Below are positions 30,880-48,565 of a stretch of 50,233 nucleotides of DNA, in pieces; the stretch's first letter is position 1; each line of letters starts with the position of its first letter. Under the pieces are notes generated by a model. The model was not told the DNA's origin and did no database searches. It worked only from the letters and a program-made list of their open reading frames with translations. The stretch comes from Frankiales bacterium. GTDB taxonomy: Bacteria > Actinomycetota > Actinomycetes > JAFAQI01. Location: assembly GCA_025980465.1 (NCBI GenBank), contig JAICXJ010000022.1, positions 1 to 50,233 of the forward strand. Direction: 5' to 3'. The translations under genes were made by a program, and so were the position numbers.

Positions 30880-30988
30880 GTGACCGGCCGGTAGAGTCGA
30901 CCGGCAGGAACAGCGGCAGCGGACCGGTCACGCCGGTTTCACGATGACCCGAGTCAGACCGAACGTCAGACAAGGAGCGGACCTCTCG

Positions 30989-33280
30989 GTGGCGCGCTTC
31001 TCCCTCGTGCTGCCGGTGTACAACGTGCGGGCATACCTGCGCGAGTGCCTCGATTCCGTCCTGGGCCAGACATTCACCGACTTCGAGCTCATCGCGGTCG
31101 ATGACTGCTCGCCGGACAACAGTGGCGAGATCCTCGATGAGTACGCCCGGCAGGACGAGCGGGTCCAGGTCATCCATCTCGAAGCGAACGCCGGGCTCGG
31201 CCCGGCCCGCAACGTAGGCATGAATCAGGCGACCGGGGACTACCTGCTGTTCGTGGACAGCGACGACGCGATGGCTCCGGGCGCTCTCGCTGCCATCGCC
31301 GCGCGCCTAATTGCCACCGACGATCCCGACGTTCTGATCTTCGACTATGCCCGGCTGTACTGGAACCGTCGTCTGGTTCGTAACCGGCTGGCCGATCTGC
31401 TGAAGCAATCCGAGCCGGCGGTCTTCACGATCGACGAGCGACCGGAGCTGCTCACGTTGCTCATGGTGGTGTGGAACAAAGCATTCAGGCGCGAGTTCAT
31501 CGCCGCCGGCGGTTTCCAGTTCCCGGCGGGGTTCTACGAGGACACGCCGTGGACCTATCCGACCCTTCTCGCCGCGCGCCGGATCGCCGTACTGAACCGG
31601 GTGTGCATCCACTATCGGATGCGCCGCGAGGCCGGCAACATCCTCAAGAGTCGTAGCCGCAAGCATTTCGACATCTATGACCAGTGGCGCCTGGTTTTCG
31701 CCTGGCTCGACGAGCATCCCGACCTCGTCGGGTGGCGGCCGTTATTGCTGCGCCGCCAACTCGAACACGTCATGACGATCCTCGACAACCCTGGTCGGCT
31801 CCCAGCGGAGGCGCGGGGTGAGTTCTTCGCCCAGGCACATGAGGCGTTCGAACGGGCTCACACCGGCGAACCGCTCTCGGTACCGGCGGGGGTCGCCGGG
31901 CGACGGCTCCGGCTGCTCGCCGAGGGCAAGTACCTCCGGTTCCGGACGCTCACCGCCCTCGTCGCGGTGCTGGTGAGCTGGCGTCGTCGGATGCGGCAGG
32001 TGCGGGGCGGTGCGCGACAGCAGTATCGGCGCGGCGTCCGCGTGGTCAAGCGGGCGTACTACCACCTTCAGCTGCGACTGCCGATTGATCCCAACCTGGC
32101 GCTGTTCAGTGCCTACTGGGATCGCGGCGTCACGTGTAATCCCGCGGCGATCTACTACAAAGCGCGGGAGCTTGCACCGCACGTTCGTGGCGTATTCGTC
32201 ATCCGGGATCCGAAGTCGACGACGATTCCGGAAGGGGTCGAGTGGGTCCTGGTCGAATCGATCGCCCATCGCCGGATCGCCGCGCGCGCCAAGTTCTTCG
32301 TGAACAACGCGAACTTTCCGGGCTGGGTCCGCAAGCGCCCGGGCACGGTCCACCTCCAGACCCAGCACGGCACCCCACTGAAGAAGATGGGGCTCGACCT
32401 GCAGGACTATCCGGTCGGAGCGAACCGGATGGACTTCGACCGGCTGCTCAAGCGGGTAGATCGATGGGACTTCAACATCTCCTCGAACCGGTTCTCGACC
32501 GAGATCTGGGAGCGTTGCTACCCGGCGTCGTTCGAGACGCTCGAGGTCGGCTACCCCCGCAACGATCAGCTCGTGTTGGCGACAGAAGCCGATCGGGTGC
32601 GGATCCGCAAGGAGCTGGGCCTCGCCGCGGACGCGACCGTCGTGCTGTTTGCGCCAACCTTCCGCGACTACCGCAACGACTTCGACCCTGAGGTCGGGTT
32701 GGATGAACTGGTCCAGGCGATCGGTGACAATGGCGTTCTGCTGGTCCGGGCTCATTACTTCCTCACCGACGACGGCTCCGAATCGCCGATCGCGTCCGAC
32801 CGGATCCGAGACGTCTCCGGCCATTCCTCGATCGAGGCACTTTTGATCGCCTCTGACGTACTGCTCACCGACTACTCCTCGATCATGTTCGATTACGCAG
32901 TGATGGATCGGCCGATCGTGATCTTCGCTCCCGACTGGGACACCTACGTGCGGACCCGAGGCGTCAACTTCGACCTGATGGCGGAGCCACCCGGGGTTGT
33001 GGCACGCACCGCCGACGAGCTCATCGAGAGCTTTCGGTCAGGAGCCGTGGTTGCGGAGGCGGCCGCGAAGGCGCGAGCCGACTTTCGCCGGCGATTCTGC
33101 GATTTCGATGACGGCCACGCCGCCGAGAAGGTGGTCCGGCGGGTATTCCTCGGCGAGCCGCTCGCACCGCAGTACGAGTCGGAATCGACGGCTGTCACCA
33201 GGGCCGGCGCGCAGGACTCCGAGCAAGCGGACGACCACGTTGACGCGGCACCGACCACACTCGAGATGGACGAAACGTGA
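30989..33280 (+). CDS. Bifunctional GT2 glycosyltransferase/CDP-glycerol glycerophosphotransferase
   Basis: The protein of about 763 residues is a fusion. Residues about 1-260 are a GT-A domain with FSLVLPVYNVRAYLREC, AVDDCSPDNS and the metal-site VDSDDAM; YEDTPWTYP marks its acceptor part. Residues about 350-720 are a TagF/TagB-like CDP-glycerol:poly(glycerophosphate) transferase, with TQHGTPLKKMGLDL, GYPRNDQL, VLFAPTFRDY and LLTDYSSIMFDYAVM. Such proteins polymerise glycerol- or ribitol-phosphate in wall teichoic acids. GTG 30989 gives the usual VARFSLVLP start; ATG 30944 is an alternative. It overlaps the sulfotransferase gene by GTGA. Confidence 0.9.
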   Translation: MARFSLVLPVYNVRAYLRECLDSVLGQTFTDFELIAVDDCSPDNSGEILDEYARQDERVQVIHLEANAGLGPARNVGMNQATGDYLLFVDSDDAMAPGALAAIAARLIATDDPDVLIFDYARLYWNRRLVRNRLADLLKQSEPAVFTIDERPELLTLLMVVWNKAFRREFIAAGGFQFPAGFYEDTPWTYPTLLAARRIAVLNRVCIHYRMRREAGNILKSRSRKHFDIYDQWRLVFAWLDEHPDLVGWRPLLLRRQLEHVMTILDNPGRLPAEARGEFFAQAHEAFERAHTGEPLSVPAGVAGRRLRLLAEGKYLRFRTLTALVAVLVSWRRRMRQVRGGARQQYRRGVRVVKRAYYHLQLRLPIDPNLALFSAYWDRGVTCNPAAIYYKARELAPHVRGVFVIRDPKSTTIPEGVEWVLVESIAHRRIAARAKFFVNNANFPGWVRKRPGTVHLQTQHGTPLKKMGLDLQDYPVGANRMDFDRLLKRVDRWDFNISSNRFSTEIWERCYPASFETLEVGYPRNDQLVLATEADRVRIRKELGLAADATVVLFAPTFRDYRNDFDPEVGLDELVQAIGDNGVLLVRAHYFLTDDGSESPIASDRIRDVSGHSSIEALLIASDVLLTDYSSIMFDYAVMDRPIVIFAPDWDTYVRTRGVNFDLMAEPPGVVARTADELIESFRSGAVVAEAAAKARADFRRRFCDFDDGHAAEKVVRRVFLGEPLAPQYESESTAVTRAGAQDSEQADDHVDAAPTTLEMDET

Positions 33281-34356
33281 CGGGCACTCCTTCGCCGTAC
33301 GACGGGCGAACCGACCGGCCGATCTTCATCGGAGCCTGCCCGAGGTCGGGCACGACGTTGCTCCGGACGATGCTCAACACCCATCCCGACATCGCGATCC
33401 CACGTGAGACCCGGTTCATGATCTTCGCCTGGGAGCGCCGATTGAACTGGCGCCATGTCAGACGACCGCGGGCTCGCGAGCGGTTCGGCAAGATCGTGTT
33501 CGAGACCAAGTGGACCCGAGGCGAGCGGCTTGGCACTCCACCCGAGATCGCTATTCCGCGACTGCGGGAGGCGCCGCCGACGCTCGGCTCGTTGGTCGGG
33601 ACCTGTTTCCAGCTGTACGCCGAGTCGACCGGGAAGACCCGCTGGGGCGACAAGCGCCCGATGTACGCGCGCTATCTGGACTCGGTGTTCACATTCTTTC
33701 CCGACGCGCAGTACATCAACTTGATCCGGGACCCTCGGGCCTCGGTCGCATCGATGCGCAAGCTCAACTGGTACGAGGGGAGCATTGCGCCGAGCATCGA
33801 CCTCTGGCTGCGGTCGGTCCGGGCTGTCGAGCCGTGGCGGAAGTGCCTTCACCCCGACCAGTTCCTCGACCTCCGCTACGAAGACCTGGTCGCTGATCCG
33901 GTCGCGGAACTCGAACGGATCTCGGACTATCTGACCCTCGACCGCGCGACGATCCCGACGATGCTGACCTACTACGAGCATGTCGACGAGAAGACCCCGA
34001 AGTATCACGCCCGGTTGTCGGAACCGGTCTCTGACGCGTCGCTTCGGAGTTGGGAGTCGGTGCTGAGCGAGGAGGAGGTCGCGCTCGTCGAGCAGGTGAC
34101 TCGGCCATGGATGACCCGCCATGGTTATGAGCCGGTCGGCGGTCAGCGCCCGCCGCGGGCGTTGCTAAACGCCTACCACGCGCGGCGACGCACGGTGGCT
34201 TGGCGACGGCGACGCACCACGCTCGAGGAGTACAAGCGGCTGGTCGCGTATCGCGGGATACCGATCGCGGCGCGGCTCACCAGTGGGCAGCGCGAGATCC
34301 ACCAGTGGCCACCGAAGCCCTCGGTGCGCAAGCGCAACATCGGTAAGCCGCGCTAG
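33277..34356 (+). CDS. Sulfotransferase family protein
   Basis: The 359-residue protein carries the PAPS-binding P-loop FIGACPRSGTTLLRTML near its N-terminus and the 3'-phosphate motif NLIRDPRASVASM. LRYEDLVADPVAELERIS follows. It should transfer sulfate from PAPS to an acceptor such as a sugar or lipid. It overlaps the glycosyl/glycerophosphotransferase gene by 4 bp, so it very probably modifies the same polymer. The C-terminus is basic (Arg-rich), which may help it to sit at the membrane. Its stop codon overlaps that of the convergent GT2 gene through a shared CTAG. Confidence 0.85.
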   Translation: MTGTPSPYDGRTDRPIFIGACPRSGTTLLRTMLNTHPDIAIPRETRFMIFAWERRLNWRHVRRPRARERFGKIVFETKWTRGERLGTPPEIAIPRLREAPPTLGSLVGTCFQLYAESTGKTRWGDKRPMYARYLDSVFTFFPDAQYINLIRDPRASVASMRKLNWYEGSIAPSIDLWLRSVRAVEPWRKCLHPDQFLDLRYEDLVADPVAELERISDYLTLDRATIPTMLTYYEHVDEKTPKYHARLSEPVSDASLRSWESVLSEEEVALVEQVTRPWMTRHGYEPVGGQRPPRALLNAYHARRRTVAWRRRRTTLEEYKRLVAYRGIPIAARLTSGQREIHQWPPKPSVRKRNIGKPR

Positions 34357-36200
34357 CCGCCAACGAAGAGAGCGAGGTAGCCGTCCTCGCCGGCCTCGAC
34401 CCGTACGGCGCGACCGGCTACCTCGCTGGTAAGCGCGGAGTCGATCATCAGTCCGTGGTGGCTGGCGCCGGCGGCGATCCGCACTCGCCAGATGCCGTCG
34501 CTGAGGTCGGACAGCGGTAACCGGCCGACGAAGCGCCGGGTGCCGAAGTGTGGGTCAGTGTGCAGTGGTTGCAGCGTCTCCCGGCCGGCGGTCCCCACCG
34601 CCACGAGGTGAGTCGGCTTGGAGTCCACGTCCCCGACCGAGCCGACGAGCTCGAGTACCCCGGCCGGTGAGATCCGGATCTGCTCGGCGCGCGACGGTGT
34701 GATGCCCGACGTGAGGGTCAGCCGTCCGCGTCCGGTCAGATCCACCCGGATCTCGGTTGCCGACCCGCGTCGCGCCCGGACGACTCGGCTGACACTCGCC
34801 ACCGCGCCGGCCGACTCATGCCAGCTGGCGATGCGGCGCAGGTGGTGGTCGCGGCTGAGGAGCACCAACCGCCAGCGCCGCTGCCGGCCGGCGATGGCGG
34901 TGACGTCCAGCCGGGCGGCGAACCGACCCTCGGCGGAGACGGTCGTCGTCAACCGCAATGGTCGGCCCAGCTGTTCGGGGATGGCCAGCATGGTCAGTCT
35001 CCTGGTGACCGGACCGACGAGGTCGATTGCTGCGCTTCCGTCCACCCGCACCTCGTCGGCGTCGACTCTTAGCTGGTCCAGCGTTGAGAGCAGCCGGAGA
35101 TCACGGTTGATGCGGAGGGGGTCGGCTGGTCGGTCCGGCTCGGGATCGGGAGGCCAGGGGAACTCGGCGTACCAGGACCGACCTTGCCGGCGGGCGACGC
35201 CGGTGTGAGGTCCGGCTCGTTCGAACTGGAGAGTTTCGTCGAGCCCCGCCGAGTCGTTACGGCGTACCAGCTCCCATTGCAGCCGCCGGAGCGCCGGAAG
35301 GCGCGCGAAGGCGCTTTCGTCGACGGTCGCCAGGTAGCTGTTGACCGAGCTGAGGAACTCGAGACGGTAGTCGTCGTCGGCGGCATCGAAGGTCGCGAGA
35401 AAGTAGCGGAGGTCATGGGTGACGGCCGACTCGTCGTACCGACGCCGTTCCTGATCGAGTCCACGGGCTGCCAGGAACCCACTGACGTAGCGCACGGCGT
35501 GGACCCGATCTCGCATCGAGGCGACGTCTAAGCGCTGCTGCGTGATCGACGCCTCGGTTCCGGTCTCGCGGACTCGCCAGAGATAGACCGGCTCCCGCCG
35601 TACGTCGACCGATCGGGCGAGGTAGTGGGCCGGCAGCGTGACGTACTGGTCCTCGTAATGGACACCGACCGGAAACCGAAACTCGTGCTGATCCCAGAAC
35701 GTCCGGCGAAAGACCTTGTTCCACGCGACGCGGTCGGCGATCAGCGGCGAGAACCGGCGGATGTGGGTCCGCAGCCTGGTACGGGCGAAGGTCTCGGCCA
35801 AGAACCGGGCGGGATAGGTGCGCTCCGAGGCAACCCGCCGAACGTTTCCGGTCGCGAGATCCGAACCCGTGGCCTCGATCGTGGACAGCAGGAGGTTGAT
35901 CGCTCCAGGCGTCAGCAGGTCGTCGCTGTCGACGAACCACAGGAACTCCCCGGTGGCGTGGTCGACGCCGGTGTTGCGCGCGGCACCGAGGCCCTGGTTG
36001 GCCTGCGTGACCACCTTCAGTCGACGATCCACCGCGGCCAGGTCGGCCAACCGGGACGCGCTGTCGTCGGTCGAACCATCGTCGACAGCAACGATCTCGA
36101 GGTCGGGCCCGGCCTGGGATCGGATCGAGGCCAAGCAGGCCGGAAGGTAGTCCGCGACGTTGTACACGGGGACGACCACCGATAGCCGCGGGCGGGCCAT
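34353..36200 (-). CDS. GT2 glycosyltransferase with a large C-terminal beta region
   Basis: The 615-residue protein has an N-terminal GT-A domain (LSVVVPVYNVADYLPACLAS, AVDDGSTDDS, WFVDSDDLL, then YEDQYVTLP). It is related to the GT2 half of the fusion encoded nearby. Residues about 350-615 are beta-rich, with repeats around RLTTTVSAEGRFAARLDV and RLTLTSGITPS, resembling the Ig-like or SH3-like region of TagF-type enzymes rather than a known catalytic domain. No TagF catalytic motif (HGTPLKK) is present. It probably adds sugars or polyol phosphates to the same polymer. The gene upstream on this strand ends 3 bp before its start. Confidence 0.85.
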   Translation of the reverse strand: MARPRLSVVVPVYNVADYLPACLASIRSQAGPDLEIVAVDDGSTDDSASRLADLAAVDRRLKVVTQANQGLGAARNTGVDHATGEFLWFVDSDDLLTPGAINLLLSTIEATGSDLATGNVRRVASERTYPARFLAETFARTRLRTHIRRFSPLIADRVAWNKVFRRTFWDQHEFRFPVGVHYEDQYVTLPAHYLARSVDVRREPVYLWRVRETGTEASITQQRLDVASMRDRVHAVRYVSGFLAARGLDQERRRYDESAVTHDLRYFLATFDAADDDYRLEFLSSVNSYLATVDESAFARLPALRRLQWELVRRNDSAGLDETLQFERAGPHTGVARRQGRSWYAEFPWPPDPEPDRPADPLRINRDLRLLSTLDQLRVDADEVRVDGSAAIDLVGPVTRRLTMLAIPEQLGRPLRLTTTVSAEGRFAARLDVTAIAGRQRRWRLVLLSRDHHLRRIASWHESAGAVASVSRVVRARRGSATEIRVDLTGRGRLTLTSGITPSRAEQIRISPAGVLELVGSVGDVDSKPTHLVAVGTAGRETLQPLHTDPHFGTRRFVGRLPLSDLSDGIWRVRIAAGASHHGLMIDSALTSEVAGRAVRVEAGEDGYLALFVGG

Positions 36201-36203
36201 CTC

Positions 36204-36668
36204 CTACCGCTGGATGGCTCGGATCGCGGCGCGCGCCAGCGCCTCGCCACGATCGGCGACCCACAGTTCCCATCGGGCTCGCCATCCGCCGGCGACGGGG
36301 ATCGGCCGGCGGAGATCGCTCGGCACCGATGTCGGCTCGGGGGGTGGTGGCAGCGATGTCGTCGAGCCGTCGGCGCGGAGCAGTCCTACTGGGGACAGTC
36401 CGGCGGCGGCAGCAGCGGCGTTCCATTCGTACTGGTAGGCGGACATCCGCGGCTCGACCACGCAGACCGTGTCGCGGCCGACCACCTGCACCCGCAGCCA
36501 GGAGGCGATTCGCGCGATGACGTCGGCGTCGTTGCGGGGTCGGTCGCCGTCGAGTGCGTCGTGCAGGTCGCAGGCCCAGGCGGCGGCGTGTGACTTCGTC
36601 TCGGGCCAGATCGGATCCTCGTCCCCGGCGCTGTCGGCGGGGCTTTCCGCGAGGAGCAGCGCAGGCAC
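36204..36668 (-). CDS. Small protein, possible sulfotransferase-like remnant
   Basis: The 154-residue product has a middle section (ARIASWLRVQVV, CVVEPRMSAYQYEW, AAAAAGLSPVGLLR) that resembles the VVKDPRxxWFxPLW...LR core of LPS-type sulfotransferases. The PAPS P-loop expected at the N-terminus is missing, and the end is short and Pro-rich. A TAG stop lies in frame just upstream, so a missing N-terminus is not hidden by start choice. A TAGGCT hexamer ends 6 nt before the GTG start, so it may still be expressed. I regard it as a reduced, perhaps non-catalytic, member; the family link is inference. Confidence 0.45.
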   Translation of the reverse strand: MPALLLAESPADSAGDEDPIWPETKSHAAAWACDLHDALDGDRPRNDADVIARIASWLRVQVVGRDTVCVVEPRMSAYQYEWNAAAAAAGLSPVGLLRADGSTTSLPPPPEPTSVPSDLRRPIPVAGGWRARWELWVADRGEALARAAIRAIQR

Positions 36669-36674
36669 GCGGCA

Positions 36675-36680
36675 AGCCTA
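36675..36680 (-). promoter_or_regulatory. -10 element before the small sulfotransferase-like gene (leaderless)
   Basis: TAGGCT on the minus strand ends 6 nt before GTG 36668. It is identical in hexamer and spacing to the nucleosidase promoter at 11642-11647. Confidence 0.45.
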
Positions 36681-36748
36681 GTGTCCGCACGTGGTTGCTA
36701 GATTCGCACCCGTCCGGGACTCGGTGCTCCGGTTGATGGATCGGCGGG

Positions 36749-37705
36749 ATGAAGCGAAATCAACTGCCTACTCGGCGTCGGCAGGCCAACTACGTCATTC
36801 CGAAGTGGAAGCTGGTTTACGTCTCCGGACCCAAGGCTGCCTGCACGACGATCAAGTGGATGCTGGCCGACGCCCTCGAAATCGACCCTCGGCTGTTCTA
36901 CCAGTCGCTAAGCGGCGAGACCTCCCGCGCGACGACGATCCACCAGGAGCGCAAGAAGTGGCTTGATGTGGCACCGCGGCTGCGCGACCTCACCGACGAG
37001 GAGCTCGAGGAGATCACACCCGAGTCGGGTTGGTTCGTCTTCACCATGACGCGGCATCCCAGCACCAGGCTGTGGTCGGGCTGGCAGTCCAAGCTGCTGT
37101 TACGCGAGCCGCGGTTCATGCGCCAGTTCGCCGCAGCGCAGTGGCTGCCGAGGGAGCCGGAGTCGACCGAGCAGGTGCTCGAAGATTGGACCAGGTTCGT
37201 CGCCGCCGTCGCGGCGCAGCCGCAGCTGCCGATCATGCAGGACATCCACTTCGCCCCGCAGACGCCGTTGCTCGGGATCGGCCGCACCCCCTACGACCGC
37301 ATCTACGACACCAGCGAGTTCGCCACGATGGTGGACGACGTCCAGGCTCACCTCGAGCGTCACGGCTTCGAGGGTCGCCTCACACCGCGACGCAGCAACG
37401 AGACGCCACTACCCGCGCTCGAGGCGGCGTTCCCGCCGCCGATCGTCGCGGCACTCGCCCAGACCTTCGCGGAAGACTTCGCGACCCTCGACTACGACGA
37501 TCCGCGGCCGTCCGACCTGCGCGCAGGTGGGTACGACGCAGATCTGCTCGCCGCCGCAGCAATCATCGCGGAGCGTGCCGACCGCCTCGGTTACCTGGCC
37601 CGTCGGGCTCGCACCCTCGACCGGAAGCTGACCGAGCTGTCCCAAGGCCTGGCGGCGGGCGGCGGGGACCGGCTCGACCGGATCCGCGGTGGGCACCGCA
37701 AGTAA
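36749..37705 (+). CDS. Sulfotransferase_2-type protein
   Basis: The 318-residue protein has the sulfotransferase_2 (carbohydrate sulfotransferase-like) pattern. The PAPS loop is degenerate, KLVYVSGPKAACTTIKWML, and a second motif WFVFTMTRHPSTRLWSGW binds the 3'-phosphate. Members sulfate carbohydrates such as chondroitin, heparan or bacterial surface sugars. It is convergent with the glycerol-1-phosphate dehydrogenase gene (8-bp gap) and divergent from the remnant gene, so it shares the surface-polymer neighbourhood. The C-terminal 60 residues are helical and Arg/Gly-rich. Confidence 0.85.
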   Translation: MKRNQLPTRRRQANYVIPKWKLVYVSGPKAACTTIKWMLADALEIDPRLFYQSLSGETSRATTIHQERKKWLDVAPRLRDLTDEELEEITPESGWFVFTMTRHPSTRLWSGWQSKLLLREPRFMRQFAAAQWLPREPESTEQVLEDWTRFVAAVAAQPQLPIMQDIHFAPQTPLLGIGRTPYDRIYDTSEFATMVDDVQAHLERHGFEGRLTPRRSNETPLPALEAAFPPPIVAALAQTFAEDFATLDYDDPRPSDLRAGGYDADLLAAAAIIAERADRLGYLARRARTLDRKLTELSQGLAAGGGDRLDRIRGGHRK

Positions 37706-37713
37706 CGGCTGGA

Positions 37714-38772
37714 TCAGCCCGAGACCAGGCGGGCGTACTCCTTCACCTGGCCGGCGATCTCTTCCTTGGACATCGCGAGGTGTTCCAGGATCGTGTACCG
37801 GTCCGGCCGGGTCGTCGGGGCGAGGTCGATCGCAGCAACGAACTGTTCGATGGTGAGCCCGATGTCCTCGGGCGCGCGCGGCAGGTGGTGGCGGCGCAGG
37901 CAGTTGTCGATCATCGCGAACTGCTCGGCGTCCTGCCGGAGGTGGGCGCACAACAGCGCGCCGACGCCGGCGAGGTCACCGTGGTTGCTCGTCCCGGGAT
38001 AGAGCTGGTCGATCGCGTGCAGGATCTCGTGGTCGCCGCCACTGCACGGCCGACTGCTCCCGGCGACCGCCATCGCCAGCCCGGAGAGCACCAACGCCTC
38101 GGCGAGCATCATCAGGAAGTCGGTGGACTCCACGGAGTCGCTGCGGCCCATGACGGCTTCAGCTGCAGCGCGGGCGAACGCCGAGGCGATGCCGTCGACC
38201 TGCTCGTTTCGATGCAGCGCGGCTAGTTGCCAGTCGGCGAGTGCGGACAGGTTGCTCACGACGTCGCCGACGCCGGCCGCGACCATCTGTCGCGGTGCCC
38301 GGCGCACGTAGTCGAGGTCGACGATGACGGCGACCGGGATGTGCACGCCGTAGGAGCCCTTGTGTCCGTTGTATTCCAGTGAGGCAACGGGTGAGGCGAT
38401 CCCGTCGTGGGCGAGGTTCGTCGCCACCGCGACCATGGGGAGCGCGACGAGTGAGGCGACGTACTTCGCCACATCGAGGGTGCGGCCGCCGCCGATCCCG
38501 ACGACCGCGTCGTACGACGACTGGCGCAGTGACACCGAGAGGTCCCGCGCGTGCTCGATCGACGCGGTTTCGACGCTCATGACATCGGCGCCGGACAGTG
38601 AGGTGCGAAGCACGCTGGCGATCTCCTCGCCCTGCACCCGACCGACGAGGACGGCAACCTTCCCGCCCCGCGAAATGCCGCTCTCGGCGAGTCGCGTGTC
38701 GAGGCTGTCGATCGCGCCGGGCCCGACGTCGAGCGACAACGGCGTCGCGATCATGCGCGCTAGTAGTGGCAT
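37714..38772 (-). CDS. sn-Glycerol-1-phosphate dehydrogenase-like (AraM/EgsA family)
   Basis: The 352-residue iron-ADH-fold protein has the NAD-binding GGGRTLDVAKYVAS and VATNLAHDGIASPVAS. The metal-binding PCSGGDHEILHAIDQLYPG and SNHGDLAGVGALL are the family signature of glycerol-1-phosphate dehydrogenase. It should reduce dihydroxyacetone phosphate to sn-glycerol-1-phosphate, the enantiomer used in archaeal lipids and in Bacillus heptaprenylglyceryl phosphate. Glycerol dehydrogenase or dehydroquinate synthase-like activity is less likely. I chose ATG 38772 because GGAG precedes it; ATG 38754 is possible. It overlaps the nucleotidyltransferase gene by 13 bp. Confidence 0.85.
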   Translation of the reverse strand: MPLLARMIATPLSLDVGPGAIDSLDTRLAESGISRGGKVAVLVGRVQGEEIASVLRTSLSGADVMSVETASIEHARDLSVSLRQSSYDAVVGIGGGRTLDVAKYVASLVALPMVAVATNLAHDGIASPVASLEYNGHKGSYGVHIPVAVIVDLDYVRRAPRQMVAAGVGDVVSNLSALADWQLAALHRNEQVDGIASAFARAAAEAVMGRSDSVESTDFLMMLAEALVLSGLAMAVAGSSRPCSGGDHEILHAIDQLYPGTSNHGDLAGVGALLCAHLRQDAEQFAMIDNCLRRHHLPRAPEDIGLTIEQFVAAIDLAPTTRPDRYTILEHLAMSKEEIAGQVKEYARLVSG

Positions 38773-39491
38773 GCAATGCTCCGCGCCTGTTCCAGGTCCT
38801 CGTGGTTGTCGACCTCGATCCACGACACCTGACCGATCGGCGCGACTTCGACAATGCCGCCGCGGTCGGCGTACTCCTGGAAGCCGTCCTCGTAGTAAAG
38901 GTCGGGATCGCGCCGCCAGGTCGCCTCGAGCGCCTCCGCCAGCCCGTCGGCGGCGGCCGGTTCGATGCGGGTCAGGCCGATGTACTCGCCCGCGACGCCG
39001 GCAGGATCGAGGGACTTGTTGATGCGGGTGAGGTGCCCCGTTTCGTTGACGACGACCTTCATCTCTTCCTCGGCGAGTGGCTTCTCATCGTCAAGGGCGA
39101 TCAGAAGCTCCGCCGGGTCGGCTGCCAGCAATGTCTTTTCGACGGAGACCGGATGAACGGTGTCGCCGTTGCACAGCAAGGCGCCGTCGACGAAGAACTC
39201 GCGAGCCAGCCACAACGAGTAGGCGTTGTTCCATTCCAGTGCCCTCTCGTTCCAGACCGTGCTGATGGTCACGCCGTGCCGACGGTGCAGGTCGGGCAGT
39301 CGGCGATCGATCTGGTGTGCAGCGAATCCACTGACGATCACGACCTGGTCAAGACCGACGCCGGCCAGGTTGGCGAGAGCGATGTCGAGAATCGTCGTGG
39401 GACCGTCGACCTCGAGCAGTGTCTTCGGCAGGTCATCGGTCAGCGGGGCAAGCCGCCGTCCGGCGCCAGCCGCCAGCACGATCCCGATCAC
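38760..39491 (-). CDS. Sugar/polyol nucleotidyltransferase (LicC-like)
   Basis: The 243-residue protein begins VIGIVLAAGAGRRLAPLTDDLPKTLLEV, the NTP-transferase signature, and has ERALEWNNAYSLWLA, CNGDTVHP and QVSWIEVDNHEDLEQARSI. It resembles the phosphocholine/polyol-phosphate cytidylyltransferases (LicC-like), which make CDP-alcohols from CTP. Given its partners, its substrate could be glycerol-1-phosphate or another polyol phosphate; the nucleotide cannot be read from sequence. Its GTG start overlaps the stop of the CDP-alcohol phosphotransferase gene by GTGA. Confidence 0.85.
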   Translation of the reverse strand: MIGIVLAAGAGRRLAPLTDDLPKTLLEVDGPTTILDIALANLAGVGLDQVVIVSGFAAHQIDRRLPDLHRRHGVTISTVWNERALEWNNAYSLWLAREFFVDGALLCNGDTVHPVSVEKTLLAADPAELLIALDDEKPLAEEEMKVVVNETGHLTRINKSLDPAGVAGEYIGLTRIEPAAADGLAEALEATWRRDPDLYYEDGFQEYADRGGIVEVAPIGQVSWIEVDNHEDLEQARSIACHY

Positions 39492-40801
39492 GATAGTTCC
39501 TCCGCACCAGCCCGATCCCGTGTCCCCCGGCGGCTCAGGGGATCCTTCCATGCAACTGTCCCAGCGGCGGCGAGCAACGCGGCGAGCATCCCAGCAAGTG
39601 CGTAGTCGCCAGGCATCACGGTGCTGGTCGCCGACAGGAGGTACACCGCCACCAGCCGCACCTCCCACCCGGCGGTCAACAGGTCGACGAGGTCTCGCGG
39701 AGGTGCGCTTGCCGGTCGGTAGACCAGGTCATACCGCCGCATTGCCACGACCGCGACAATCGCGAACCCGGCGGCGATGTCGTGGTCGCCGGCGATCGCG
39801 GCCAGCCGCAGGATGCCGACCGTTTCAGCTACCAGGAGCAGCGGCGGGAGAAGAAAGTCCAGCCGGGCGGACAGTCGGGCGCCGACGCTGAGCAGGCCCC
39901 ACCCGATCAGCCAGGCGAGGGCTGCGCCCACCGCCCAGCTCCGACCGTCGTGGCGGCCGATCAGCCCGATCGCCAGGAGCCAGGGCACGGTGGCGGCGGC
40001 GACCCGGATTAGCGGTGGTCCGAGCCACCACGCGGAGCGCGCCCCGAACTGACCCGCCATGAGCCGGCGGGCCAGGCCGTCATCGCGATAGGCCGCCAGC
40101 GTCGGCGACGCGCCGGGCGGTGGGCCCTCCGCCAGTGCCCGCCGGACCCGGCCGGCGAGGGTGTAGGCCGTCGCAAGCCCGCCCCACGCCAGCAGGGCGA
40201 CGAATGTGACCTCGGGCCGGAAGACGGCGGCTGTGATCGACATCACAAGCAATCGCTCGCCGATCGGAAGCACGATCACCCGACGTACCCAGTAGCCCGC
40301 GCCCCGGCGGTCGGTACGCCGGACGCCGGGCCGGCCGACGGCGTAGCTGAAGTCGATGTAGTGCCTCGAGGTCTGGATGATCAGGGCGGTGCCGGCGAGC
40401 GCCCAGACGTCGTGGTGAAAACCTCGACTCGAGCCGATCGCAAGCCCGGCGTATGCGGCGTACTCCTTGGCGCGGTCGACCATCCCGTCGAACCAGGCGC
40501 CGAACTCCGACATCGCGCCGGTGTACCGCGCCAGCTGGCCGTCGACGACGTCGAGGGTGAACGACGCTTGCAGCAGCAGCGCACCGGCGATCAGGCCGGC
40601 CCGTGAGCCCGCGGCGAACCCGGCGGCAGCGCCGAGCCCCACCACGAGGGACGCGCCGGTGATCTGGTTCGGCGTCAGGCCGATCCGCGCGGCGAGTCGC
40701 ACCAGCCGAGGTGAGTACGAGGCGACGAAGAACGTTGCGAAGAACCCGTCGTCGGTCTTCACGGCAGCGGCGAGCCTGGCATCGTCGGCAGTCGGCCTCA
40801 T
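39488..40801 (-). CDS. CDP-alcohol phosphatidyltransferase-family membrane enzyme
   Basis: The 437-residue protein carries the complete family motif D-x-x-D-G-x-x-A-R-x8-G-x3-D-x3-D (DVVDGQLARYTGAMSEFG, then AWFDGMVD) at about residues 84-109. It then has several hydrophobic membrane segments, with extra C-terminal segments making it longer than the usual 200 residues. It should transfer a phospho-alcohol from a CDP-alcohol, or to a lipid acceptor. It is the first gene of a three-gene minus-strand operon. The nearest candidate promoter is TAGCGT about 9 nt upstream. Confidence 0.85.
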   Translation of the reverse strand: MRPTADDARLAAAVKTDDGFFATFFVASYSPRLVRLAARIGLTPNQITGASLVVGLGAAAGFAAGSRAGLIAGALLLQASFTLDVVDGQLARYTGAMSEFGAWFDGMVDRAKEYAAYAGLAIGSSRGFHHDVWALAGTALIIQTSRHYIDFSYAVGRPGVRRTDRRGAGYWVRRVIVLPIGERLLVMSITAAVFRPEVTFVALLAWGGLATAYTLAGRVRRALAEGPPPGASPTLAAYRDDGLARRLMAGQFGARSAWWLGPPLIRVAAATVPWLLAIGLIGRHDGRSWAVGAALAWLIGWGLLSVGARLSARLDFLLPPLLLVAETVGILRLAAIAGDHDIAAGFAIVAVVAMRRYDLVYRPASAPPRDLVDLLTAGWEVRLVAVYLLSATSTVMPGDYALAGMLAALLAAAGTVAWKDPLSRRGTRDRAGAEELS

Positions 40802-45706: not shown

Positions 45707-46654
45707 TTAGGCGTCGAGTACCTCGGGGTGGCTGCGGAAGTAGTCGATGGTGTGACCGAGCCCCTCCTCCAGGACCACCTTCGGCTCCCAGCCGAGGACC
45801 TGCCGCGCAAGCGCGATGTCCGGCTGTCGGATAGTTGGATCGTCCTCGGGACGAGGGATGAATGCGGTCTCACTGGTCGACCCGCAGAGGTCACGGATCG
45901 TCTCAGCGAGCTCGAGCATGGAGACTTCGTGCGGGTTGCCGATGTTGACCGGGCCGGAGTGATCGCAACGAAGCAGCCTCACAACACCTTCGACGAGGTC
46001 GTCGACGTATTGGATCGAGCGGGTCTGCGTCCCGTCGCCCGCCACCGTGATCGGCTCGTTGCGCAGCGCCTGCCGGATGAAGTTGGGGATCGCCCGACCG
46101 TCATTCGGTCTCATGAACGGCCCGTGAGTGTTGAAGATCCGCACGATTGCGGTGTTGACGTCGTGGTAACGGCGGTAGGCCATCGTCATGGCCTCGGCGA
46201 ACCGCTTCGCCTCGTCGTACACGCCGCGCGGGCCGACCGGGTTGACGTGACCCCAGTACGTCTCCGGCTGCGGATGAACCTTGGGATCGCCGTAGGTCTC
46301 CGAGGTGGAGGCGATCAGGAACCGAGCGTTCTTCTCCTTCGCCAGGCCGATCGCGTGCAGCGTCCCGATCGAGCCGACCTTGAGCGTCTCGATCGGAAGT
46401 TGCAGGTAGTCGATCGGCGAGGCAGGCGAGGCGAAGTGAAGCACCGAGTCGACCGGACCGGGCACGTGAATGAACTCCGTGACGTCGACCTTGAGGAACT
46501 GGAATCCGTCGCGGCCGATCAGGCGCTCGATGTTGCGCGGCGTACCGGTCAAGAAGTTGTCGAGACAGATGACCTCGTCGCCGTCGTTGAGCAGTCGCTC
46601 GCACAGATGGGAACCGAGGAAACCCGCGCCACCAGTGACGACGGCACGACCCAT
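45707..46654 (-). CDS. UDP-glucuronate decarboxylase (UDP-xylose synthase)-like
   Basis: The 315-residue extended SDR has the Rossmann motif [12 protein letters not shown], the Ser-Thr region ASTSETYG, the YxxxK motif YDEAK, and the decarboxylase-type [24 protein letters not shown] and [21 protein letters not shown]. It probably converts UDP-glucuronate to UDP-xylose in the cytosol; related dTDP-sugar dehydratases are less likely. UDP-xylose could feed the surface-polymer glycosyltransferases 5-15 kb upstream, by inference. The ATG is preceded by GGAGAAACGTCC. Confidence 0.85.
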
Positions 46655-47359: not shown

Positions 47360-48565
47360 ATGGCGCCCCCGACTCGCTCCCAGGTCGACGTCGCCGTCGT
47401 CGGCGGCGGACCGGCTGGACTGTCGGCGGCTGCAGAGGCCGCGAAGGGCGGCCTGTCCGTCATGGTGCTCGAGCGGGGCCACGCGATCGGCGAGCCGGTG
47501 CGAACGAGCGGCGGCAGCTTCGTCAAGCCGCTGAAAGCTCTCGGCGTACCCAAGCGCTGCTATCACCCGATCCACCGAATCAAGGTGATCGGACCGACGA
47601 CCTCGGCGACCAAGTCGTATCGGCGGGCGGTCGGATGCGTGATCGACGTTCGTGGTACCTACCAGTGGCTCGCCCAGCAGGCGGTGGAGGCGGGGGCGGA
47701 AGTACGGCTGAAGGCGCATGTCGAAGGTCCGCGCCCGGCCGGCCGTGGAGTCTCAGTGCGGGACCCCTTCAACGGCCGGTACGAGCTCGCCGCGCGGGTC
47801 GTGGTGGATGCCAGCGGTCACACCGGGTTCCTGGCTCGCGATGCCGGCCTGCGGCCCGGCAACGAGCGCAGCGCGGTCGGCATGGAGATCGAGTTGCATG
47901 CTCCCGGCTACGACCAGGACGAGGTGATCTTCTGGCTCGGGAATGACGTCGCCCCAGGCGGCTACGGCTGGGCGTTTCCGTGTGGCGACGGGCGGGTCCG
48001 GCTCGGCGTCGGTCTGGTCCGGCCCAACAGCGATGCCGAGCCTCGGACGTTGCTGCAGCAGCTCAGCAAGGAGTTCGCGCCGCTCACCGGGACACAGCAG
48101 ACCTTCGGCGCGCTGGAGATGCACAGCGGCCTGATGCCGGTGTTGCCACCCGACGCCACGACGCTGGTGGGACGCGGGCTGGTCGTCACCGGTGACGCGG
48201 CCGGTCAAGGCTCGACCCTGCTCGGCGAGGGAATCCGCTACGCGATCACGGCCGGCCGCGCAGCCGGCCGGGCGATCGTCGCCGCGGGCGGCGACTACAG
48301 CCCGCACGGGCTGGCGTCGTACCCCAAGGAATGGCGCCGGATGTACGGCCGCAATCTCAAGATCTCCTACGCCGTCAACGAGCGGATCTGCAACTTCGCT
48401 GACGACGACTGGGACCGGGTGATCCGGCGCATGGATGCGCTGACGTCGCGTCAGGCGGCGGCGGTGTTTGCCAGTTCGTTCAGCCCGTGGTGGGCGGCGT
48501 CGGTCATCTTCACCGATCCTTCGCTGGTGCGATCGGTCGCCCGTGCGTTGCGGGCCCGCCGTTAG
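47360..48565 (+). CDS. Geranylgeranyl reductase-family FAD-dependent oxidoreductase
   Basis: The 401-residue flavoprotein has the FAD dinucleotide motif VAVVGGGPAGLSAAAEAA, then VLERGHAIGEPVRTSGGS, VVVDASGHTGFLAR, GGYGWAFPCGDGRVRLGVGL and VTGDAAGQGSTLLGEGIRYAITAGR. This is the geranylgeranyl reductase/menaquinone reductase group that saturates isoprenoid double bonds. In actinobacteria such enzymes reduce polyprenyl or menaquinone chains (MenJ-like). Other substrates, e.g. aromatic compounds, are possible. The ATG has a weak ribosome site. Its stop overlaps that of the convergent peroxiredoxin gene by 4 bp. Confidence 0.85.
   Translation: MAPPTRSQVDVAVVGGGPAGLSAAAEAAKGGLSVMVLERGHAIGEPVRTSGGSFVKPLKALGVPKRCYHPIHRIKVIGPTTSATKSYRRAVGCVIDVRGTYQWLAQQAVEAGAEVRLKAHVEGPRPAGRGVSVRDPFNGRYELAARVVVDASGHTGFLARDAGLRPGNERSAVGMEIELHAPGYDQDEVIFWLGNDVAPGGYGWAFPCGDGRVRLGVGLVRPNSDAEPRTLLQQLSKEFAPLTGTQQTFGALEMHSGLMPVLPPDATTLVGRGLVVTGDAAGQGSTLLGEGIRYAITAGRAAGRAIVAAGGDYSPHGLASYPKEWRRMYGRNLKISYAVNERICNFADDDWDRVIRRMDALTSRQAAAVFASSFSPWWAASVIFTDPSLVRSVARALRARR

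Follow-up and report, generated by a model that had tools for sequence, protein, structure and literature searches.

A conserved pair of a glycerol-1-phosphate dehydrogenase family enzyme and a nucleotidyltransferase as a candidate TagD-independent source of CDP-glycerol for wall polymers in Actinomycetota

Organization of the gene cluster

The window, the whole stretch of 50,233 nucleotides analysed here, comes from a Frankiales bacterium (GenBank assembly GCA_025980465.1, contig JAICXJ010000022.1) and represents contig 50 of a 3.45-Mb genome which is 95% complete. It carries a cluster in which the genes of a glycerol-1-phosphate (G1P) dehydrogenase family enzyme, a nucleotidyltransferase and a CDP-alcohol phosphotransferase are accompanied by genes of a putative polymerase, a second glycosyltransferase and two sulfotransferases. 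A first-pass annotation had read this cluster as a candidate pathway for a sulfated glycerol-phosphate surface polymer built from G1P. All the genes named there were recovered by Pfam and NCBIfam family matches, and a 154-aa open reading frame absent from that gene list was found in addition. The cluster is composed of the following genes.

30944..33280, plus strand: GT2/CDP-glycerol glycerophosphotransferase fusion (PF00535, 122 bits; Glyphos_transf PF04464, 404 bits)
33277..34356, plus strand: Sulfotransfer_3 sulfotransferase, accessory (PF13469, 139 bits)
34353..36200, minus strand: GT2 glycosyltransferase, accessory (PF00535, 126 bits)
36204..36668, minus strand: 154-aa protein directly upstream of the GT2 gene, with no Pfam or NCBIfam match
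36749..37705, plus strand: Sulfotransfer_2 sulfotransferase, accessory (PF03567, 51 bits)
37714..38772, minus strand: G1P dehydrogenase family, EgsA/AraM (Fe-ADH_2; NF002022, 253 bits; ATG start)
38760..39491, minus strand: LicC/IPCT-type (COG1213-like) nucleotidyltransferase (NTP_transferase PF00483; GTG start)
39488..40801, minus strand: CDP-alcohol phosphotransferase with C-terminal DUF5941 (CDP-OH_P_transf PF01066, 38.6 bits; PF19365, 54.3 bits)

The last three genes overlap each other. The GTG start of the nucleotidyltransferase and the stop of the phosphotransferase share 4 bp (GTGA), and the ATG of the dehydrogenase overlaps the nucleotidyltransferase stop by 13 bp. The proposal of a single operon thus holds for these three minus-strand genes and does not extend to the remaining cluster genes, whose strands are mixed. 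On the plus strand, the fusion polymerase and Sulfotransfer_3 genes also share 4 bp (GTGA), and a GTG at 30989 is a possible alternative start of the fusion polymerase. At a distance of 5-8 kb from the cluster, the window also carries a UDP-sugar epimerase/decarboxylase-like gene and a geranylgeranyl-reductase-like oxidoreductase gene (45707-46654 and 47360-48565).

Family assignment of the encoded proteins

The dehydrogenase is a member of the G1P dehydrogenase (G1PDH) family, by both sequence profile and predicted fold, as had been read earlier from motifs. The NCBIfam model of archaeal G1PDH (NF002022) matched residues 23-355 with 253 bits, a score below the curated archaeal equivalog cut-off of 413. 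A profile built from 24 relatives and searched against PDB chains gave 110-207 bits with the G1PDHs and 3ce9, while glycerol dehydrogenases reached at most 66 bits. The AlphaFold model (pLDDT 92) was superposed on M. jannaschii G1PDH 4rgq (Z 41.4, 2.1 A, 319 residues aligned), B. subtilis AraM 9h4x (Z 38.5, 2.8 A, 333 aligned), 3ce9 (Z 43.6) and 5fb3 (Z 39.6), while glycerol dehydrogenases gave at most 36.1. The residues D170, H248 and H264, which we take to be the metal-binding positions of the family, are kept across the aligned dehydrogenases, and a single sequence deviates, at D170. These positions and the HDGIASP-type motif agree with those of the solved G1PDHs. Considering this family resemblance, the enzyme is predicted to reduce dihydroxyacetone phosphate (DHAP) to sn-glycerol-1-phosphate. 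The C. acetobutylicum structure 3ce9, deposited as a glycerol dehydrogenase, matches the G1PDH profile far above other glycerol dehydrogenases and may be misnamed. Second dehydrogenase copies were observed near rplU/obg in Streptomyces (L081:8702-10503, L074:9427-10569, L072:9379-10506), and PF04464 genes lie within 10 kb of them in L072 and L074.

The LicC-like assignment of the nucleotidyltransferase was borne out. Its nearest solved structures are T. maritima inositol-1-phosphate cytidylyltransferase (IPCT; 4jd0, 1.8e-15), PntC (6pd1, 9.5e-12) and LicC (1jyk, 7.6e-11), and it possesses the G-x-G-x-R-L..PK nucleotide loop, the catalytic Asp and the C-terminal D of the LicC/IPCT family. The motifs GAGxRL..LPK, WNNAYS, NGDTVHP, YYEDG and W.EVD are kept in its relatives. 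On the basis of its genome context, the enzyme is proposed to be a CTP:sn-glycerol-1-phosphate cytidylyltransferase. A search of the open literature for glycerol-1-phosphate cytidylyltransferase and its variants, with subscription journals outside its reach, returned no paper.

The family of the CDP-alcohol phosphotransferase was likewise confirmed by motif and fold. The canonical D-x2-D-G-x2-A-R-x8-G-x3-D-x3-D motif is intact (DVVDGQLARYTGAMSEFGAWFDGMVD), and the model of residues 1-222 aligned with AF2299 over 209 residues (Z 18.6, 2.4-2.5 A). AF2299 and IPCT-DIPPS were its best matches. Many relatives carry a fused N-terminal part, which is nucleotidyltransferase-like where Pfam assigns it. 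The model of the C-terminal DUF5941 was of low confidence (pLDDT mostly 40-65), and no fold match to this domain alone could be interpreted. In L059 (11807-12742) and L066 (11911-12888) DUF5941 is a separate gene and the motif of the first phosphotransferase is lost (checked in L059); the protein of such members is possibly a degenerate or regulatory subunit. A second CDP-alcohol phosphotransferase family was found on contig 14 of the same genome (L095:9809-10582) and in relatives (L059:8604-9374; L070:10494-11273), with the motif D..DG..AR.8G...D...H/A. The last Asp of the motif is normally the catalytic base.

The fusion of GT2 with a CDP-glycerol glycerophosphotransferase was substantiated by PF00535 and by a PF04464 match that covers the whole domain (profile positions 2-366 of 367). 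NCBIfam TarF scored 202 bits against a cut-off of 550, hence the protein is not called TarF. Its domain composition suggests a poly(glycosyl-glycerol phosphate) polymerase. A 1293-aa GT2/PF04464 protein is encoded on contig 27 of the same genome (L097:5292-9173), with no polymer genes recognised in the surrounding 20 kb.

Conservation of the pair and its association with wall-polymer genes

The distribution of the dehydrogenase, the nucleotidyltransferase, PF04464 and TagD was analysed in 297 genomes of the class. The dehydrogenase and the nucleotidyltransferase were each found in 71 of them, and each set has a single genome that the other lacks: the dehydrogenase of G092 and the nucleotidyltransferase of G104 both lie at the start of their contigs, abutting the edge. 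The survey of relatives proposed in the first-pass annotation thus found the two genes kept together. PF04464 glycerophosphotransferases were present in 111 genomes and TagD in 23. PF04464 was observed in 68 of the 71 genomes with the dehydrogenase compared to 43 of the 226 without it (Fisher p 2.7e-33); at genus level the counts were 28/29 and 21/85 (p 2.5e-12), and since the genomes are related and not independent, the p-values overstate the association, for which the count by genus is a fairer measure.

TagD is the standard CDP-glycerol-making enzyme. It was absent from all 71 dehydrogenase genomes and present in 23 of the 226 others; among PF04464 carriers alone, it was found in none of 68 with the pair compared to 14 of 43 without (p 3.7e-7). 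One family (f27) holds both kinds, in separate genera. The genome of the window follows this distribution, possessing two strong PF04464 proteins and no TIGR01518 match in a genome-wide search, and a TagD encoded elsewhere in it was therefore rejected. Two metagenome-assembled genomes named Solirubrobacteraceae and Thermoleophilaceae (L135, L155) also hold the pair, which would extend the module past the class, with binning errors being possible.

The neighbourhoods of 100 dehydrogenase loci of at least 15 kb were compared with 20 random stretches. The nucleotidyltransferase accompanied the dehydrogenase in 98/100 loci and in 0/20 random stretches, so the pairing exceeds chance. The second CDP-alcohol phosphotransferase homologue was found in 92 loci and the first in 65 (0/20 each), GT2 in 64 (0/20) and a TagH-like gene in 27 (3/20). 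A LytR-CpsA-Psr homologue was present in 55 loci (1/20), its Pfam label coming from one truncated cluster member with 22.4 bits at a cut-off of 24.6. The first-pass annotation did not mention that the module of the relatives also includes tagGH, a further GT2 and the second CDP-alcohol phosphotransferase homologue. Relative L011 shows the order tagG-tagH-nucleotidyltransferase-dehydrogenase, while contig 14 of the window's genome carries tagG-tagH-second CDP-alcohol phosphotransferase-GT2, followed by an IspD-short-chain dehydrogenase (SDR) fusion and a weak PF04464 protein. Genes expected of wall teichoic acid synthesis are therefore present, TagGH on contig 14 and LytR-CpsA-Psr in the loci of relatives. 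In an alignment-query search with 80 named loci, the relatives of the locus included Streptosporangiaceae, Micromonosporaceae and Nocardioidaceae.

The IspD-SDR protein, which is CDP-ribitol-synthase-like, was found in 53/100 loci and 1/20 random stretches, for example at L095:12256-13755 and L052:13497-15176. Its conservation near the module suggests that these loci also serve a ribitol-phosphate polymer.

Sulfotransferase genes showed a different distribution. L201 carries an orthologue of the fusion polymerase (60% identity over 773 aa) and, 4.3 kb from it, an orthologue of the Sulfotransfer_2 protein (56%), and Sulfotransfer_3 homologues are close to fusion polymerases in L203, L204, L208 and L209. 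Sulfotransferase homologues were found beside fusion polymerase relatives in 4/10 non-Streptomyces loci (5/10 at a looser cut-off), 0/10 Streptomyces loci and 0/20 controls, and near the dehydrogenase in 4/120 loci. The sulfation step proposed earlier is the weaker part of the interpretation: sulfotransferases accompany some of the fusion polymerase relatives, and conserved sulfation as a general feature of the G1P module was rejected. If real, sulfation may be tied to some fusion polymerase products and not to the G1P route itself. An APS kinase is encoded in the genome, so 3'-phosphoadenosine 5'-phosphosulfate is likely to be supplied.

Proposed pathway, alternatives and comparison with known systems

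Taken together, the earlier interpretation is partly supported, and the reading with most support is a route from G1P to a surface polymer. The comparative gene data strongly support the core idea of a pair supplying a TagD-free polymer route, and we consider it probable that the pair is a TagD-independent source of CDP-glycerol for teichoic-type wall polymers. In the proposed pathway, the G1PDH would reduce DHAP to sn-glycerol-1-phosphate, and the LicC/IPCT-type enzyme would join it with CTP to give CDP-glycerol of the opposite hand to the TagD product. PF04464 glycerophosphotransferases, here the GT2 fusion, would use this donor to build a glycosyl-glycerol-phosphate chain. Membrane CDP-alcohol phosphotransferases would move phosphoglycerol to a membrane acceptor (lipid or sugar carrier), perhaps as the chain primer. 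TagGH would then export the polymer and LytR-CpsA-Psr ligases attach it to the wall, and the sulfotransferases of the window's lineage may decorate it. The TagF-like enzymes Cps7D and Cps3D take up both CDP-glycerol enantiomers in vitro (PMC5974469), and because of this the polymerases could tolerate an inverted glycerol.

Several observations, besides the relatedness of the genomes, weigh against this pathway. PF04464 lies near the pair in only 4/100 loci with the domain query and 9/120 with the whole-fusion query. Twenty-nine genomes have PF04464 with neither TagD nor the pair, so there must be further donors, for example CDP-ribitol, and three dehydrogenase genomes (two in one genus) have no strong PF04464 protein. 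The role given to the CDP-alcohol phosphotransferases, including their acceptor, is itself a proposal, and the second homologue, in which His or Ala replaces the final Asp, may differ in its chemistry from the first. CpgD, a related nucleotidyltransferase whose best structural match is also 4jd0, yields CDP-glycerate and does not accept glycerol-1-phosphate (PMC12275187), and COG1213-type enzymes act on several phosphates. With substrates this varied in the LicC/IPCT group, that of the nucleotidyltransferase is not readable from its family, and the argument for it rests on genome context.

Four other explanations were considered, in order of decreasing probability. The first, that the cluster is a chance neighbourhood in which the three-gene operon and the fusion polymerase with its sulfotransferases serve separate polymers, is unlikely. 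In its favour, neither the fusion polymerase nor the sulfotransferases are conserved beside the operon in relatives, and in G009 the polymerase orthologue and the dehydrogenase are on separate contigs. Against it stand the joint presence of the pair and PF04464 across genomes and the CDP-alcohol phosphotransferase genes close to fusion polymerases in L206, L207 and L210.

A second explanation takes G1P as the acceptor: the nucleotidyltransferase would activate another alcohol phosphate, such as inositol-1-phosphate, which the phosphotransferase would join to G1P, forming a phosphodiester head group or solute. The best solved relative of the nucleotidyltransferase, T. maritima IPCT, fits this, and so do the AF2299 and IPCT-DIPPS matches of the phosphotransferase and the N-terminal fusions of its relatives, as in IPCT-DIPPS. 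It is nevertheless improbable in our view, as it leaves the CDP-glycerol glycerophosphotransferases of 68/71 carriers and the lack of TagD in all 71 unexplained, and some second copies in Streptomyces (L081) hold the dehydrogenase and the nucleotidyltransferase, while no CDP-alcohol phosphotransferase, the second homologue included, was recognised in the vicinity.

The third keeps the same polymers and changes the activated three-carbon unit, to CDP-2-glycerol, CDP-glycerate or CDP-glycerol of the usual hand. The CDP-glycerate made by CpgD is in line with it (PMC12275187), and product stereochemistry is not fixed by family resemblance. The pneumococcal glycerol-2-phosphate genes (gtp1-3) were sought as a precedent in the literature and no usable account was found. 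This explanation seems quite improbable given the HDGIASP-type motif and metal-site positions shared with solved G1PDHs and a predicted fold that places AraM and M. jannaschii G1PDH above the glycerol dehydrogenases.

These enzyme families also meet in phosphonate pathways; a phosphonate head-group route was rejected, as PEP mutase (TIGR02320) had no match in the window's genome. The fourth explanation, supply of G1P for archaeal-type ether lipids, a role suggested earlier for G1PDH-bearing actinobacteria (PMC6431249), could draw on the true relationship of actinobacterial and archaeal G1PDHs (PMC5059525, PMC6431249) and on the geranylgeranyl-reductase-like gene about 9 kb away, and is very improbable, since the dehydrogenase is constantly accompanied by a nucleotidyltransferase and wall-polymer genes and the route was rejected on the lack of any geranylgeranylglyceryl phosphate (GGGP) synthase match (PF01884; controls from B. 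subtilis and archaea positive) in the 95% complete genome.

If the proposed CDP-glycerol supply is true, the pair fills a gap in the synthesis of actinobacterial glycerol-phosphate polymers, where LtaS is reported missing and TagD was found in 0/71 carriers. A bacterial G1P dehydrogenase would thereby gain a main non-lipid role, with a relative of the archaeal lipid-chirality enzyme serving wall polymers. A mirror-image wall polymer would be predicted, for which stereospecific enzymes are already available, such as B. subtilis GlpQ with its specificity for sn-glycerol-3-phosphoryl ends (PMC7086022). The teichoic acid chemistry of Bacillus and Staphylococcus is textbook knowledge. Their wall polymers carry sn-glycerol-3-phosphate via TagD, and their lipoteichoic acids sn-glycerol-1-phosphate via phosphatidylglycerol (PMC7086022). 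Actinobacteria are reported to be without LtaS, and the lipoteichoic and wall teichoic acids of S. hygroscopicus are reported as near-identical polyglycerolphosphate (PMC3196553); a shared donor derived from G1P would fit both reports. We tentatively extend the idea, at somewhat less than even confidence, to much of the Actinomycetota, where the wall (and perhaps lipo-) teichoic acid donor would be G1P-derived CDP-glycerol, the polymers would mirror those of the Bacillus wall and CDP-alcohol phosphotransferases would prime the chains. Such priming could also account for lipoteichoic acid in bacteria reported without LtaS.

Parts of this module are known in other settings. Actinobacterial G1PDHs are known from phylogenetic trees, and an ether-lipid role was considered possible for them (PMC5059525, PMC6431249). 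In a 2026 study of Streptomyces synteny, a tagH-tagG-araM-CDP-alcohol phosphotransferase-GT2-nucleotidyltransferase block is tied to teichoic acid biosynthesis (PMC13118837). This block is the same conserved module, and the passage on it proposes no pathway, donor or TagD replacement. A proposal of TagD replacement by the pair, or of G1P-derived CDP-glycerol, was not found in the open literature, the range of the search, which left subscription journals outside.

A close parallel would be wall teichoic acid synthesis of B. subtilis (TagD, TagB, TagF, TagGH), with which the present system shares PF04464 enzymes, a TagGH-type exporter, LytR-CpsA-Psr ligases and CDP-glycerol as the expected donor. 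It differs in the lack of TagD, in the membrane CDP-alcohol phosphotransferases added here and in the donor, which is proposed to come from G1P via another protein family and would be inverted in stereochemistry. With AraM of B. subtilis and EgsA of archaea, the dehydrogenase shares family, fold and metal-site positions, while its partner is a putative cytidylyltransferase instead of GGGP synthase and its context is that of wall polymers rather than lipids. The same two enzyme families as in IPCT-DIPPS and AF2299 are adjacent here and often fused in relatives; unlike there, a G1PDH replaces the supply of inositol phosphate, DUF5941 is added and polymer genes lie around. The fusion polymerase resembles the Gram-negative capsule polymerases Cps7D and Cps3D in that a single protein combines a TagF-like polyol-phosphate transferase with a glycosyltransferase (PMC5974469), and whereas those loci have a predicted glycerol-3-phosphate cytidylyltransferase, the genome analysed here possesses no TagD and the conserved pair would take its place.

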